Assembly: GCA_025774805.1 (NCBI GenBank)
Contig: JALGZR010000085.1
Location: forward strand, 1-16,240
Direction of reading: 5' to 3'
DNA from: a bacterium
Lineage (GTDB): Bacteria; ARS69
Length of the DNA: 16,240 bases
The notes beneath the pieces were generated by a model. That model was not told where the DNA came from, ran no database searches, and worked only from the letters and a program-made list of their open reading frames with translations. The position numbers and the translations under genes are program-made. Of this stretch, positions 3,734 to 9,834 are shown one piece after another. Positions within the stretch are counted from its first letter, which is position 1, and every line of letters begins with the position of its first letter.

Positions 3734-4798
3734 GTGATTCCCCTGCGTCGCACCTCCGCTCTCCTCGTGATTCTGACGGTGCCTCTCGGCCTCGTCTCCC
3801 GCTCCCCCGCGGCCGACGGTCCCGTGCCGCGGGCGGTGCTCGTCGAACTTTTCGGGGGAGAGTCGTGCGCGGCCTGCGAGGACGCGCGGGCCGCCCTCAC
3901 CATGCTCGAGGCGGAGCTCGGAGCGGAGAACGTACTGGCGGTGGAGTACTCCCGGGACGCGCCGCTGGCTCACGGGGGGGCCGCCGCCCGGTTCACCTAC
4001 TACGGAAATCCCGTCCCTCCGGCGGCCTTCTTCGACGGCGGGGATCCCGTTCTCGGGGCCCCGGGCGACCTCGTGCCCGCGTACCGGGCTCGCCTGGAGG
4101 GGCGTCTCGCCGTCCCCTCCCCGCTGGGGGTCGAGTCGGTCTACACGTTCGGGGCGGTCGGAGGAGAGGGTTCACTCCTCATCGATCTCCGATTGCCCGA
4201 GGGGGAGACGTTTCCCGATCCGGAGGCCTGGACGGTTCGCGCTCTTCTCGTGGAGGACGCCGTTCCGGTCCCGTCCGGAGGGGGTTCGGCGGTCCGGAAC
4301 CGGGTCGTCCGGCAGCTTCTTCCGGCGAGGGCTCTGGCGCTCGACGCGTGGGGCCTCCAGCGAATCGAGCCGGTGTTTCCCCTCGACCCGCAGTGGGACC
4401 TCGATCGGCTCGGGGCCGTCGTCTTCGTCCAGCGGGACGCCGATGGCGCGATTCTCAACGCTCACCGGTCCATCGACGCGCTCTCTCTCCAGCCCGTTCC
4501 CTCGCTCCCGCTCGACGCGTCCCGCCCTGTCCTCCTCCCTCTCGTGCCGAACCCGATGCTCACCGAGACGCGGATCTCCTTCGTGCTGCCCGCCGAGGCC
4601 CGGGCGTCGTTGACGATCCACGATCTCTCGGGGCGCGTCGTCCGCGTTCTCACCGACGACCTGCGCCCGCCCGGTATCCATCCGCTCCCGTGGAACGGCA
4701 CCGACTGGAAGGGGCGCCGGATGGCCGGCGGAGTCTACTTCGTCCACCTGCGCACGAGCGCGGGAACGGACACGAAGAAGCTGGTTCTGATTCGCTGA
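3734..4798 (+). CDS. Secreted Omp28-like thioredoxin-fold protein with FlgD-like C-terminal domain
   Basis: A 354-residue exported protein. Residues 1-27 form a signal peptide (MIPLRRTS, then a hydrophobic stretch ending SRSPAA). A thioredoxin-like domain follows: VLVELFGGESCAACED (35-50) holds a CxxC pair, C45 and C48, and NPVPPAAFFDG (92-102) matches the proline loop plus 'x-DG' strand typical of Omp28-type proteins. The middle (about 130-260) is a beta-rich region. The last 90 residues are a FlgD Ig-like/sorting-tail module, with VPNPMLTETRISF (271-283), WNGTDWKG (320-327), AGGVYFVHL (331-339) and KKLVLIR at the end. Such tails usually mark proteins of the cell envelope or exterior. The start is GTG; an in-frame TAG 9 bp upstream means no earlier start exists, although the ribosome site is weak. 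A role in envelope thiol chemistry is plausible but unproven, and the substrate is unknown. Confidence 0.8.
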   Translation: MIPLRRTSALLVILTVPLGLVSRSPAADGPVPRAVLVELFGGESCAACEDARAALTMLEAELGAENVLAVEYSRDAPLAHGGAAARFTYYGNPVPPAAFFDGGDPVLGAPGDLVPAYRARLEGRLAVPSPLGVESVYTFGAVGGEGSLLIDLRLPEGETFPDPEAWTVRALLVEDAVPVPSGGGSAVRNRVVRQLLPARALALDAWGLQRIEPVFPLDPQWDLDRLGAVVFVQRDADGAILNAHRSIDALSLQPVPSLPLDASRPVLLPLVPNPMLTETRISFVLPAEARASLTIHDLSGRVVRVLTDDLRPPGIHPLPWNGTDWKGRRMAGGVYFVHLRTSAGTDTKKLVLIR

Positions 4799-4829: not shown

Positions 4830-4849
4830 GGCGAGCGGCTGCGCTCGTC
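4830..4849. terminator. Small hairpin between convergent genes
   Basis: CGAGCG (4832-4837) pairs with CGCTCG (4842-4847) over a 4-base loop. The stem extends by a G-U and a G-C pair at 4830-4831 and 4848-4849. It occupies the 50-bp gap between the ends of two convergent genes and could end transcription from both sides. There is no T tract on either side, so confidence is low. Confidence 0.3.
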
Positions 4850-6105
4850 TACGGCACCACCACCTCGATCGTGGCCGTGAGATCACGCGTGAAGCCGGCG
4901 GAGTCGATCGCTCGCACGGTGAAAGTGTGGATCCCCTCCGTGCCGGGGACCCAGGGGCCCTCCGTGTTCGGCGGCCACCTTCGGCTCGGGCCGAAGTCCG
5001 AGAACGCGCCGCCGTCCGTTCGGGTGGCATAGCCGGTGACCACGCTGCATTCCGTGGTCGGCAGGCCCACGAAATCGAATCGGACACCCGCGTTCGGGCC
5101 GATGAGGAGGACATCGCCATCATCGCCGGTGGACCATCTCTCGTTCCGAGGCTCACCGTTGACCCGCACCTGAATGTCGAGGGTGGGACCCCCCGCCGAG
5201 GCGAGATCGCGAACCTCGAAGGCGATCAAGTTGCGTCCGGCCTCGAGAACGCGCTCCGTGGCCCCGGCGTTGTCGATGGCCCGAAGCGCGTACCAGAAGC
5301 GGTTCTCCTCCTGGACTCCCGAAACGGTCTGCGGCAGACCGGTGAGCAGAATGGAGTGCGCGGTCTCCGGAACCCAGACCGGATCGCTCGTGTCGTATCC
5401 CCCCGCTCCGTCCGGACGGTACACCACGTTCTCGAGCCAGGCGGCCACGGCCGCGTCATCCGCGGGAAGAGCCCCCGCGTTCACCGGATCGTTCCGGTAG
5501 TCGAAGGCGGATACGAGGGCACGCTGGAAGGAGACGATCTCGCCGTCCGGGTCGATACCGATCCACTCGAACGGGGTGTCGGGACAGCTCAAGGCCTCGT
5601 GCGTCGGCCCCTCCATGACGTGCGTGGATGGCGCGATCGTGTGGGACGTGAAGCGGACCGAGACCGGGGTGGGGTCCCTCTTCCCGCTGGGTGAAAGCCC
5701 TCTCACGAAGAACGCGTGCGGCTGGGAGTAAACGGAGTCGGGCAACGGGGTCTGGTACGTGGGAAGCGGATCGACACAGCACGTCTCGGCGGCCTGCGTG
5801 AAGAAGATGCTGTCCGTGGACGTAACGGAGACCCACTCCGAGGTGTCCTCCCAGGCGATCTCGTAACGATCGGCGGCCCGCGCGGCGGGAGAGGCCTCGG
5901 GCAGGGTGTTCGTCGTCCAACGGAGGTTGACCCGGTAGCTGACGTCGGCCCCTTCCGCCGGCCCGACCGTCAGGTAGGTGTTGGGAACCCGGTCATCGTC
6001 GACCGGACCGCTCAGCTCGTCGTCACCGCACCCCGCGGCGAGGGCCAGACCGAGAAGGACACCCCCCCCCATCGAGGAGGTCCGGAGAAGACGTGGGCGC
6101 AACAC
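4849..6105 (-). CDS. Lipoprotein with Fn3/Ig-like beta-sandwich domains
   Basis: A 418-residue predicted lipoprotein. The GTG at 6105 is chosen as start because AAGGAG lies 7 bases before it and it gives a classic lipoprotein signal: basic VLRPRLLR, a hydrophobic core, and lipobox LALAAGC with the lipidated cysteine at about residue 26. Acidic GCGDDE then disfavours inner-membrane retention in proteobacteria-like sorting rules. Residues about 38-85 (YLTVGPAEGADVSYRVNLRW) look like a fibronectin type III-type strand set. A central region has paired cysteines (ETCCVDPLP) and a segment DTPFEWIGIDPDGEIVSF resembling Fn3-type repeats, and the C-terminus (IHTFTVRAIDSAGFTRDLTATIEVVV) is an Ig-like edge. 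No catalytic motif was found. Likely a cell-surface binding or structural protein; the function is not recognised. The gene is monocistronic or weakly linked to the large glycosyltransferase gene 153 bp upstream. Confidence 0.75.
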   Translation of the reverse strand: MLRPRLLRTSSMGGGVLLGLALAAGCGDDELSGPVDDDRVPNTYLTVGPAEGADVSYRVNLRWTTNTLPEASPAARAADRYEIAWEDTSEWVSVTSTDSIFFTQAAETCCVDPLPTYQTPLPDSVYSQPHAFFVRGLSPSGKRDPTPVSVRFTSHTIAPSTHVMEGPTHEALSCPDTPFEWIGIDPDGEIVSFQRALVSAFDYRNDPVNAGALPADDAAVAAWLENVVYRPDGAGGYDTSDPVWVPETAHSILLTGLPQTVSGVQEENRFWYALRAIDNAGATERVLEAGRNLIAFEVRDLASAGGPTLDIQVRVNGEPRNERWSTGDDGDVLLIGPNAGVRFDFVGLPTTECSVVTGYATRTDGGAFSDFGPSRRWPPNTEGPWVPGTEGIHTFTVRAIDSAGFTRDLTATIEVVVP

Positions 6106-6254
6106 GATCGAGCTCCTTCGAGTGCTCGGAGAGGGGGCGGGACCGTCGCGTGGGCTCGAGCCCGGAAACGAAGCCCCCATGAGGGCCTCTACCATACTCA
6201 ACCCCGCCCGGTTCGTCATCGGGGGAAATGGGTGACGGGGCCGGGGCAGAGAGG

Positions 6255-6266
6255 CGGGCTAGCCCG
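6255..6266. repeat. 12-bp palindrome centred on the glycosyltransferase stop
   Basis: CGGGCTAGCCCG is perfectly self-complementary, and its centre holds the TAG stop (6261-6259) of the large fusion gene. The following 140 bp up to the lipoprotein start hold no gene; a weak -10-like TATGGT on the minus strand near 6190 could serve the lipoprotein. It might be a short 3'-end hairpin, or chance. Confidence 0.35.
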
Positions 6267-9200
6267 TCCGGGGCGCGGAGCCCCTCTCCGCCGGACTCGG
6301 CGCGTCGTACCCGGCACCCTCGATCTCGGTGAGGCGCGAGTGGTGGACGTAGGCTCCGGGGACCCGCACGACCGGGTGTCCGGCCCGGCGGAGCCGGGGA
6401 AACAGGTCGAACAGCGCGTCCGCGAGGGAGAGCTCCTCGTTCAGGCCACCGGCGCCGACCACGTGCTCCGTCCGGAGGAGCAGGCAGAACCCGCCGAGGT
6501 GAGGAACCTCCTCCCAGGCGTCCCGGTGCCGCTTCCCCCGACGACGAACGTAGCGGTGCAGCCCGCGCCCGAGATCGGAGTACTCCGACCTCACGCGCTG
6601 CGGCGCGGGGGCGGCGTTCGACACGGGGCCGACCGCTCCGAGATCAGGGTTGTCGACGGCAACGCGCACGAGACGCGACAGCACCTCGTCTCCGAGGACG
6701 ACATCCGGCCCGACGAGCAGCACGAGTCCGGGCTCGGCCATCTGGGATTGCAGGTGGATCGTCTCGGACCAGACGGGGATCTCGTCCTCGTGGTGGTACC
6801 GGTGGAAGAGATCCCGGATCTCGGCCTTGGGCTCGCGGCCGGGCAGCATGCCGACCTCGATGCGGCACGAACGGCCGATCGCGGCCCGAGCGGAGGCGGA
6901 CTCCCGCTCGCCCGCGGCCGCCGGCTCCGGTGAACGCGGCCGTCTCTCCTCGGACCCGGCGGTCACGGTCGGCAGCGGGACGGGCGGATGGTGCGGTCCG
7001 GACACGAGCTCCATGAACGGGTACGCGTCCTCGATCCGGGCCGCGGGGTCCATCCCCCACTTCTCTTTGAAGATCTCGAAGTTGTTCCGCATGTTCTGCC
7101 GGTAGTCGATCGACTCCCCGACGAAAGTCTGGGTTCCGACGTGGTGGATGAAGACGTCGAGCGCGATTCGCGTCCGCCATCCGGCCTGGAACGCGCGCAG
7201 ACAGAAGTCGTCGTCCTCGAAGTTCCCCAGGCCGAACCGCTCGTCGAACCCGCCGATGGCGTCGAGAACTTCCTTCCGCATCAGCCAGCAGAAGCCCACG
7301 AGGCGTCGCGACGGCACGCTCCGGCCCGCGTGGCTCCGGGCGATCTCGCGCGCGAAATCCTCCATCTCCTGCGGAGTCCGATAGGGGACGTCGGGAATGA
7401 CCTGCGGTCCGGAGGCGCGGTTCGTCACGGGCCCGACGATGCCGACGTCGCGGTGCTTCGTCAGCACCGAGGCCAGCCCCTCGAGCCACCCCTGGGTGAC
7501 GGCGGTGTCGTTGTTCAGCACGACGATCCGGCGACCCGTGGCGATGGAGAACCCCTGGTTGTTCCCCCGGGCGAAGCCGAGGTTCTCCCGGTTGAAAACG
7601 GTGCGGACGGTATCGTGGCGCTCGGCGAGCTCCCCGAGGTACTCGACGGTCCCGTCGGTGGAGCCGTTGTCCACCAGGATCAGCTCGTAGGGCGCGGGTG
7701 TGTGGCGGCGGATGCTCGTGACGCAGTGCCGCGTGTGTTCGAGCTGGTTGCGGGTCAGAACGACGATCGACGTCCGGTCGTCCTCGGGCCGCCGTGCGGA
7801 AGGTGTCGCGCCGCGAGTGCGAGGGAAGATCCTCCATCCCCTCTGCCGGATCCGGCTGAGGAGATCCGCGTACGCGACATCGCCCTGCAGGGTCCCGTCG
7901 AAGCCGTCCACCTCCTCGTACACCGAGCGCCGCACGAGGAGTCCGGTCTCGACCGGCGAGAGAGAATGTTCCCGCGCAACCGCGTCCGGGAGCTCCACCG
8001 CCGCGAGACCGGGGTCGCCGTCCAGGGTCTCCAGCAACGGATCCAGCCATCCCTGCCCCACCTCGACATCGGGGCCGAGGAGGAGAAGGAACTCCGTCGT
8101 GGCCAGGACGGCTCCCTGATTGCCGGCGACGGAGTATCCGAGAGGGCGCTCGTTGACGACGACCTTCACGTTGCCGTCGAGGCAGGCGAGGAGCTCGTCG
8201 GTGCCGTCGGTCGAGCCGTCGTCCACGAGAACGATCTCGAAGCTCCCCTCCGGGGTGTTCGCGGCGAGCGCCTCCAGACACCTCGTCGCGCTCTCCACCC
8301 GATTGTGGAGAGGAAGGACGAGCGTGACGCGCGGGTCTCCCTCGGGACGGTCGTAGATGCGCCGAATCGTCGTTCCCGGCAGCTCGAGCAGTCGGATTCC
8401 CTTCCGGCCCGCGGGCGCCGGCGCGGGGGGCGCGGCCGGGAATGCCGGCGGCGACGGCACGGGCGAGGTCGTCCCGGAGGTCGGAGTTCTCGTCCCGGCC
8501 GGGGACGGAGGCCCGGCCGCGGGTCGGTCCGACGGTGGGGTCGGCGAGGACGAGCCGAGCAGCGCGGCCGCGAGGCGATCGGCCGCCGAGCTCGTCGTGC
8601 AGGGTCGGGTCGCGTCCCTCGCGGGGGGGCGGACCGGACCGGCCGCATCGACCGGCCCCGTCGGAAACCCCACCGTGTCGAGAGTGAGCGGATTCTCGGG
8701 CGACCCGGGGAGGGGGGCCGCCGCGGTGGGCCGGGCACCGACCGGGGAGATCGCGGGGAAGAAGAGGCGGCCCGCCTCCTCGAACCGCTCGCGGACGCGA
8801 TCCAGTCGCTCGACGATCTCCTCGGGCCTTCCCATCGCCGCCCGACGGAAGACCGTCTCCACCTCCTCCAACCAAGGGTGCGGCGCGGATCGGAGCGGGT
8901 CCGCCGTCCCGACGCCACCGTGGTGCCGGAGCCCCGGATCGAGGAACGCGTCGATCGCGGACCCGGACTCGGCCATCCGGTCTCCCCAGGGGAGGCGGAG
9001 ATCCTCGCCGACCCGCGCGATCTCCGAGCGCCAGTCGGCGAGCAGCCCGTCGTAGGTCACGAAGGAGCGGACGAGCCCCCGCGACTCGCTCTCGGCGGCG
9101 AGGCAGTGCGTCAACCAGAGCAGGCGGGATCGCGGCTCGGAGAGACCGTTCCGGCGGAGGAGGGACGCGGCCACCTCGTCCACGCTCCGCAGCACGAGGA

Positions 9201-9624
9201 CGGCGCGGAGTTCGCACCCCGAGTCCGTGAGAACCCGAGTCCAGAGGGGAACGAGTCGGCAGAGACGCGGGTCCTTGAGACCCCACAGGGACGATCTCCC
9301 GAAGTCGCGCGCGAGGATCGCACCGAGCTCCTCGCGGAGGGGGCGGAGATCCTCGCCGAGCAGGCGGGAGGCGGGCAGGGGCGTGGGATCGTCCCAGGCC
9401 GTTCCGAGCCGGGCGAGAAGGCGCTCGTGAAGGAGCACGATCTCCCGGTGCTCCCAGAAACCCGCCCGGTTGTCTCCGGCCGCGGGCAGAAGCCGATCGC
9501 CGAGGTCCACGCCGAGAAGGTTCAGAACCCGAGTCAGAGCGGACGTGCCGCTTCGGTGCATTCCGAGGACGAGGATCGCGATCCGGTCGGATCCTGCAGC
9601 ATCACGCGGGGCCGTCGAGTCCAT
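6259..9624 (-). CDS. Sulfotransferase-like domain fused to three GT2-like glycosyltransferase modules
   Basis: A 1121-residue multidomain protein. Residues 12-290 resemble the sulfotransferase family: P-loop-like GMHRSGTS (21-28) binds the 5'-phosphosulfate in relatives, and LRSVDEVAASLLRR (about 144-157) fits the 3'-phosphate motif. A Pro/Ala/Ser-rich linker (about 325-410) follows. GT2 module 1 (about 425-605) has EIVLVDDGSTDGTDEL but GPDVEV where the metal motif is expected. Module 2 (about 615-860) is the most complete: LILVDNGSTDGT, NRENLGFARGNNQGF, VVLNNDT and FEDDDFCLRAFQAGW. Module 3 (about 910-1110) keeps only the second half (LLVGPDVVLGDEVL, GGFCLLLRTEHV). The start is uncertain: ATG 9624 with GGAG 8 bases before is preferred, while ATG 9666 has GGAGG at 10. 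Likely makes or decorates surface polysaccharide at the inner-membrane face. Domain classes are firm; donor, acceptor and true sulfotransfer are unknown. Confidence 0.8.
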   Translation of the reverse strand: MDSTAPRDAAGSDRIAILVLGMHRSGTSALTRVLNLLGVDLGDRLLPAAGDNRAGFWEHREIVLLHERLLARLGTAWDDPTPLPASRLLGEDLRPLREELGAILARDFGRSSLWGLKDPRLCRLVPLWTRVLTDSGCELRAVLVLRSVDEVAASLLRRNGLSEPRSRLLWLTHCLAAESESRGLVRSFVTYDGLLADWRSEIARVGEDLRLPWGDRMAESGSAIDAFLDPGLRHHGGVGTADPLRSAPHPWLEEVETVFRRAAMGRPEEIVERLDRVRERFEEAGRLFFPAISPVGARPTAAAPLPGSPENPLTLDTVGFPTGPVDAAGPVRPPARDATRPCTTSSAADRLAAALLGSSSPTPPSDRPAAGPPSPAGTRTPTSGTTSPVPSPPAFPAAPPAPAPAGRKGIRLLELPGTTIRRIYDRPEGDPRVTLVLPLHNRVESATRCLEALAANTPEGSFEIVLVDDGSTDGTDELLACLDGNVKVVVNERPLGYSVAGNQGAVLATTEFLLLLGPDVEVGQGWLDPLLETLDGDPGLAAVELPDAVAREHSLSPVETGLLVRRSVYEEVDGFDGTLQGDVAYADLLSRIRQRGWRIFPRTRGATPSARRPEDDRTSIVVLTRNQLEHTRHCVTSIRRHTPAPYELILVDNGSTDGTVEYLGELAERHDTVRTVFNRENLGFARGNNQGFSIATGRRIVVLNNDTAVTQGWLEGLASVLTKHRDVGIVGPVTNRASGPQVIPDVPYRTPQEMEDFAREIARSHAGRSVPSRRLVGFCWLMRKEVLDAIGGFDERFGLGNFEDDDFCLRAFQAGWRTRIALDVFIHHVGTQTFVGESIDYRQNMRNNFEIFKEKWGMDPAARIEDAYPFMELVSGPHHPPVPLPTVTAGSEERRPRSPEPAAAGERESASARAAIGRSCRIEVGMLPGREPKAEIRDLFHRYHHEDEIPVWSETIHLQSQMAEPGLVLLVGPDVVLGDEVLSRLVRVAVDNPDLGAVGPVSNAAPAPQRVRSEYSDLGRGLHRYVRRRGKRHRDAWEEVPHLGGFCLLLRTEHVVGAGGLNEELSLADALFDLFPRLRRAGHPVVRVPGAYVHHSRLTEIEGAGYDAPSPAERGSAPRTG

Positions 9625-9834
9625 GCCGAGCACTCCGGAGAGAGAATGGGGGCGCTCAGACCGCATTCTTCGCCGGCCTCCGCCGCGGCAGCGGCAGGGC
9701 CGGGGAGAAACGCAGGCGGAGGCGCGCGGATCGGGTCTCCTCCCCTTCATCGGCAAAGGCTTGCGGATAATGAGCACTCTTCAGCATGATGGACCCGCTC
9801 GCCTCGCCCCTCCCCGACACCTCCGGGAGCCCCG
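9625..9834. promoter_or_regulatory. Divergent promoter region between the glycosyltransferase fusion and the START-domain gene
   Basis: This 210-bp gap separates divergent genes. It contains one locally AT-richer patch (about 9755-9790) in otherwise GC-rich DNA. On the plus strand GATAAT at 9766-9771 resembles a -10 box, but no good -35 lies 16-18 bases before it. The minus-strand side may hold an N-terminal extension of the fusion protein if an earlier start is used. Promoter placement is inference. Confidence 0.35.

Follow-up and report, generated by a model that had tools for sequence, protein, structure and literature searches.

The stretch of DNA analysed here, the window, is an entire 16,240-nucleotide contig (JALGZR010000085.1; contig C25 of genome G000) of a draft bacterial genome in 284 contigs (GCA_025774805.1; ARS69), and its minus strand carries at 6259..9624 a gene that we suggest, with reservations, takes part in the glycosylation of flagellin. 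The open reading frame (ORF), together with orthologues in two related genomes, defines a protein of 1121 amino acids (aa) in which a sulfotransferase domain (residues 15-290) is joined through a linker (297-425) to three glycosyltransferase (GT) modules: module 1 (429-608), decayed; module 2 (616-856), putatively active; and module 3 (920-1106), a pseudo-GT. Residues are numbered on this 1121-aa protein throughout, and all features of the gene lie on the minus strand. A preliminary description of the window had located the gene correctly while leaving its strand unstated, and the GMHRSGTS P-loop, Pro-rich linker and three GT-A-like modules that it listed are all found in the translation. The longest open frame is 9777..6259, which would encode 1172 aa from a GTG; we prefer the ATG at 9624 as the start, since it is where the orthologue in genome G001 begins and since the periodicity of G+C content over the three codon positions is missing upstream of it (0.65/0.69/0.75) and present through all modules (module 1, for example, has 0.76/0.46/0.85, and module 3 has 0.80/0.45/0.88). 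A 933-aa ORF on the opposite strand (6988..9789) was taken as a shadow ORF of this GC-rich gene. Many GT2 equivalogs of NCBIfam match the protein, all far below cut-off, and therefore no named family fits it.

The phylum to which the window belongs is very small, with five genomes (the window's own, G000, and G001 to G004), all of one family. The orthologue in G001, a separate assembly, has 1146 aa and the same order of sulfotransferase, two GT modules and module 3, and the orthologue in G003, cut by the end of its contig, covers the two GT modules and module 3, an order that is also found in G357, a genome outside the phylum. In a draft of 284 contigs, an assembly error or frameshift might have joined separate genes, but the repetition of the full order in an independent assembly, and of its last three modules in G003 and G357, refutes such an artefact at the level of the architecture, and we regard its likelihood as negligible. 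The joining of genes against which the preliminary description had warned was thus not found, and the modules whose GT-A fold it had left in question match GT-A structures in AlphaFold models, as detailed below. Another member of the family, G002, encodes a fusion of the sulfotransferase with a GT2 and a GT4 module, without module 3, beside other glycosyltransferase genes. Separately, the complete genome G051, which gave no flagellin hits, encodes a sulfotransferase fused to three GT2 modules (L172:2810-6805), so that this layout appears to have arisen elsewhere too.

The N-terminal domain (8755..9582) is, as judged from its sequence, a sulfotransferase that would use 3'-phosphoadenosine 5'-phosphosulfate (PAPS). 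This assignment draws on three lines of evidence. First, a 17-sequence alignment (A7) keeps the 5'-phosphosulfate loop (GMHRSGTS in the window, residues 21-28, 9541..9564; GxxRSGTS near invariant), a KDPR motif and the 3'-phosphate binding pair R146 and S154 at a spacing of 8 (9163..9189; the Arg invariant, the Ser nearly so). Second, the domain's profile, searched against the PDB, matches protein-tyrosine sulfotransferases (2.5e-10), with R146 and S154 aligned to their counterparts. Third, homologous domains in other fusions (L051, L172, L173) exceed the Pfam Sulfotransfer_3 cut-off of 27 bits, below which the window protein alone stays, at 13.6 bits. APS kinase, which is needed for PAPS synthesis, is encoded in G000 to G003 (about 1e-53 to 1e-56, with 1e-56 in the window's genome), making a supply of PAPS plausible in G000, although this evidence is permissive only; in G004, which is without the sulfotransferase, the same search gives only a 20.7-bit match. 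The Pro/Ala-rich linker that follows (8350..8736) shows no conservation in the comparison with G001.

Module 2 (7057..7779) is a complete GT2 and the putative active site of the protein. PF00535 matches the protein at 6e-49 in two stretches, and the fold of module 2 finds GT-A structures at Z about 21. Judged by the DxD, xED and C-terminal His motifs of GT-A enzymes (PMC7185993) in alignment A5, it is the one module that keeps every catalytic motif, as the preliminary description had held: the VDNGSTDGT nucleotide loop, NNDT as DxD equivalent (7504..7515), the xED catalytic-base motif FEDDDF (7204..7221, within FEDDDFCLR) and the C-terminal His. Its evolution is unexceptional, with 9 of 44 sites before the DxD strand and 12 of 93 from the DxD on changed or lost relative to sites identical in G001 and G003, and with tree branches of 0.27 for the window and 0.38 and 0.32 for the orthologues.

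Module 1 (7801..8340) has kept its nucleotide-binding half and lost its catalytic half. The combination reported earlier, VDDGSTDGT present and the metal and acidic motifs absent, is borne out by alignment A4, in which GPD stands for NND (GPDV at 8065..8076, where the orthologues read NNDT and NNDI), AYAD stands for EDVD, the C-terminal His is gone, and about 35 conserved residues have been deleted, every deletion being in frame. The orthologous modules in G001 and G003 retain these residues and the full DxD, xED and His set. Measured against sites identical in those two genomes, the window's module 1 has changed or lost 16 of 49 before the DxD strand and 70 of 97 from the DxD on, and its tree branch is 1.24, compared with 0.24 and 0.30 for the orthologues. 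An AlphaFold model nevertheless matches the GT-A structure 6p61_B over 172 residues (Z 21.9, root-mean-square deviation 2.2 A). Because the motifs are intact in both orthologues, the losses are concentrated in the catalytic half and the branch is long relative to that of module 2, we conclude that module 1 was disabled in the window's lineage only, having probably been a second active GT in the ancestor. In a distant genome, G029, the second of its tandem GT2 proteins (L039:4556-6793, contig C340) has a first module without xED and with LDPGVV in place of the DxD, followed by an intact second module, and is an independent case of first-module loss.

The third module (6307..6867) has a different history. 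Its nucleotide loop, DxD and xED are all missing, and it is degenerate in all three orthologues (G000, G001 and G003). It matches PF13641 at 2.5e-6 and, in profile comparison, sides with module 2 (2.7e-15) rather than with module 1 (1.3e-10). An AlphaFold2 model of the module alone (pLDDT 88.9, pTM 0.87) has PDB fold matches that, among those listed, are nearly all GT-A, at Z about 12, and that include the accessory domain of the collagen glycosyltransferase LH3 (296-519, Z 10.9); searched by sequence against the PDB, the module gave nothing significant, so that its relation to GT-A structures there comes from the fold search only. The preliminary description had the second half of the module as retained and the nucleotide-binding half as lost. 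The former holds; the latter is too strong, as the model, though short of beta-alpha units in its N-terminal half, keeps one. An RRM-like start (window 6769-6867; RLxVGxLPG...LFxRYG) is probably due to chance, given a best match to NONO at only E 0.06 and a model that is GT-A.

In trees, module 3 falls in a clade, here called M3, with support of 99.4/100, to be read with some caution in view of its long branches, and with first members outside the phylum in G357, G240, G275 and G138. A profile of seven M3 sequences recovers the window's module at E 2.8e-79 and ordinary GT2 modules at best at about 1e-26; a profile of three had not cleanly separated M3 from ordinary GT2 for G240 and G275. Every M3 copy, that of the window included, directly follows an active GT2 module, none has an xED base, and the residues found where DxD and xED should stand differ freely from member to member (the window's GPDV, 6700..6711, corresponds to APD, SSD, SGA, SSG or MGG in relatives; alignments A6 and A8). 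We regard M3 as an old pseudo-GT subfamily, already inactive in its ancestor and spanning several bacterial families. A flagellar locus in G415 (contig C1) contains a 2964-aa frame with four GT2 modules and an M3 module (L227:9747-18638), among the largest multi-glycosyltransferase frames that we met.

The GPDV strands of modules 1 and 3 are both present as first noted, and internal duplication with decay had been suggested from them. Two degenerate modules and decay stand, but GPDV is no sign of a single duplication. The orthologous module 1 reads LNNDT or LNNDI at this site, the tree places module 1 among other first modules but module 3 in the M3 clade, and the codons differ (GGC CCC GAT GTC as against GGG CCG GAT GTC); we therefore reject a common duplication of the two modules. 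Gene conversion between them is rejected from the same codon differences and the lack of any tract of DNA identity. The orthologous residues and the codons show GPDV to be convergent, and the two dead modules have different histories.

Two other explanations of these modules need to be considered. One is that module 1, module 3 or both still catalyse transfer by metal-independent or base-free chemistry, making the protein a multi-step synthase. Both retain the last Asp of the DxD strand (GPD), module 1 retains its nucleotide-binding half, and some GT-A families are active without DxD or xED (PMC7185993). Against this, module 3 lacks the nucleotide loop, M3 members vary freely where the two motifs should be, and module 1 lacks the xED base, the His and the residues that its own orthologues keep; we therefore think continued catalysis improbable. 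The other is that the gene is simply decaying, with modules 1 and 3 functionless and the protein heading for loss, as the fast change and deletions of module 1 might suggest. Yet the 1121 codons form a single open frame, codon-position G+C is normal in every module, the deletions are all in frame, module 2 evolves at about the rate of its orthologues, and module 3 has been kept across lineages, which together make this explanation very improbable. A non-catalytic scaffold or binding role for the degenerate modules, as the preliminary description had envisaged, is supported and is the reading that we favour for them.

A possible context for M3 is given by gene order outside the phylum, with flagellin genes identified by PF00669 matches. 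Each of the eight M3 genes found there is a neighbour of flagellin and shares its strand, and a GT2/TPR or GT2 gene lies next to each. In the first four relatives (G357, G240, G275 and G138) the order on one strand is flgL, the multi-GT gene with M3, a GT2/TPR gene or GT2 genes, and flagellin; a second, FlgL-like match in G275 lies on another contig only, and the Pfam neighbours of M3 in G138 are FliW, FlgL, flagellin, FliS and FliD. Four further M3 genes (G387, G388, G391 and G415), held out and sought after the hypothesis had been formed, all repeat this arrangement (in G391, over the part that its contig covers). The chance of such closeness to flagellin in the four held-out genes is roughly 2e-9, a figure that ignores shared ancestry, so that fewer independent events stand behind it. 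A contig scan with the whole protein, from which near records were possibly left out, gave 80 hits; flagellin lies within 6 kb in 7 of the top 17 and in none of the other 63 (Fisher 6e-6, with the cut at 17 made post hoc). In other lineages, two fusions of a sulfotransferase with GT2, GT4, GT2 and TPR parts directly follow flgL (L051, in Neomarinimicrobiota, and G347). Within the phylum, G000, G001 and G003 have both M3 and flagellin, and G002 and G004 have neither; on contig C144 of the window's genome a GT2/TPR gene directly precedes flagellin, as in the relatives, but that locus has no multi-GT gene, and the window carries the sole M3 gene of the genome. Elsewhere (L178, contig C24 of G163; flagellin at C24:1617), a sulfotransferase gene that stands alone (339 aa) and a multi-GT gene of 1365 aa occur within about 15 kb of flagellin, possibly an unfused form of the same pairing.

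We propose, as probable by a modest measure, that the protein is a soluble enzyme of the cytosol which lengthens a short glycan meant for the protein of the flagellar filament and adds sulfate to it, with modules 1 and 3 as non-catalytic scaffold or docking parts. Flagellin would receive its glycan while still in the cytosol, prior to export, as with FlmG; the starter sugar would be placed by the separate GT2/TPR protein whose gene immediately precedes that of flagellin; module 2, given its complete motifs and fold, would add a sugar to extend the glycan; and the N-terminal domain, given its PAPS motifs and the APS kinase in the genome, would move sulfate from PAPS onto it. Modules 1 and 3, no longer transferring sugar, may act as scaffold, help to shape the enzyme, or provide docking for flagellin or the glycan, and since module 1 is disabled in this lineage the glycan is expected to be shorter or simpler than that of relatives. 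A narrower version, in which one cytosolic enzyme extends and sulfates a flagellin O-glycan and both dead modules, one of them the ancient and lineage-spanning M3, dock flagellin, is tentative, and we would not call it probable. The analysis shows the domains, their folds, the lost motifs, the pattern across lineages and the order of genes in the relatives; the substrate, the sequence of steps, sulfation and docking are inferred from these. The suggestion that the protein couples chain extension and sulfation on one surface glycan thus survives as to sugar transfer and sulfation in one chain, while the gene order narrows the surface glycan to one of flagellin.

Several observations weigh against a flagellar role. 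The main gap in the argument is that neither the window gene nor its orthologues in G001 and G003 adjoin flagellar genes: ORF and Pfam searches found none on the 16.2-kb contig, and the flagellin of G000 is on C144. The co-occurrence inside the phylum covers five genomes, some of them incomplete, and a sulfotransferase match in the same frame was found in none of the eight M3 relatives outside it. The sulfotransferase domain also occurs in genomes without a flagellin match (G002, in its fusion with GT2 and GT4, and G086, G195, G326, G289, G351 and G051), and hence the domain alone is no flagellar marker and says nothing about the target. Finally, the literature searched contained no paper on a sulfated bacterial flagellin.

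These points leave room for a protein that assembles a polysaccharide of the cell surface or a lipid-linked oligosaccharide (exopolysaccharide (EPS), capsule or lipopolysaccharide) and adds sulfate to it, as in the sulfated EPS of cyanobacteria, the flagellar link of M3 not having been carried into the phylum. EPS clusters commonly include sulfotransferase genes of this kind (PMC8205485), no flagellar gene is linked to that of the window, and G002 has its fusion beside other glycosyltransferase genes and no flagellin. However, domain searches of the window genes found neither Wzx/Wzy nor ABC export genes, nor any others for glycans, and the parts absent from G002, the second GT2 and M3, are those tied to flagellin loci elsewhere. 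We consider a polysaccharide target rather unlikely and retain the flagellar glycan as the preferred one.

The surroundings of the gene differ among the orthologues. Directly downstream of those in G001 and G003, on the same strand, is a LytS-type histidine kinase gene (L046:1272-3142 and L010:111-1337), with a LytTR regulator also in G001; the equivalent place in the window holds a lipoprotein-like gene of no assigned kind (4849-6219, minus). Further away, at 3734-4798 on the plus strand, is a gene whose product ends in a FlgD-Ig-like domain of sorting type, and a similar C-terminus occurs in L039 (G029).

If the flagellar proposal is correct, sulfated flagellin glycans would be predicted in bacteria, and we would know of no earlier example of a bacterial flagellin that carries sulfate. 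M3 would be a recognisable non-catalytic GT module by which flagellin glycosyltransferases could be picked out in several uncultured lineages of bacteria, and module 1, intact in its sisters and dead here, would be a clean case of the stepwise conversion of an active GT into an inactive one. The protein would also illustrate the way in which flagellar glycosyltransferases acquire tailoring enzymes by fusion.

Compared with known systems, the parts are of familiar kinds; to our knowledge, neither a fusion of them that includes two dead GT modules differing in age nor the tie between M3 and flagellin is described in the literature searched. The best PDB matches to the whole model are the chondroitin polymerase K4CP and the heparosan synthase PmHS2, which likewise carry tandem GT-A modules in one chain. 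In both of these, the two GT modules are active, and they are polymerases without a third module or a sulfotransferase. Bacterial EPS sulfotransferases such as XssA and XssE are PAPS sulfotransferases that act with glycosyltransferases, as is proposed here, but they are encoded by separate genes in a Wzx/Wzy EPS cluster (PMC8205485). As for the inactive modules, COSMC (C1GALT1C1) is a pseudo-GT that has lost both DxD and xED and serves as scaffold or chaperone for an active relative (PMC7185993); it shares these losses, but is a separate GT31 protein rather than a fused module. In LH3 (PLOD3), an accessory GT-A domain that has lost its activity may recognise the substrate (PMC6082870). An active GT thus stands beside an inactive GT-A domain in both proteins, and M3 matches that accessory domain, a resemblance of fold only; LH3 is eukaryotic, acts on collagen and has a hydroxylase where the window protein has a sulfotransferase. 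FlmG is a modular cytosolic flagellin GT for pseudaminic acid that binds flagellin through a separate domain (PMC7591256), and it consists of TPR and one GT, without sulfotransferase or pseudo-GT. A close parallel to the proposed function is the type B flagellin GT2 of Clostridioides difficile (CDR20291_0242), a GT2 fused to a methyltransferase that adds and modifies flagellin sugars and is encoded beside fliC (PMC5207246). Both proteins join a GT2 to a tailoring enzyme, with flagellin as the target there and the presumed target here; the C. difficile protein transfers methyl, is linked to fliC and has no reported pseudo-GT modules, whereas the window protein is predicted to transfer sulfate and is unlinked.

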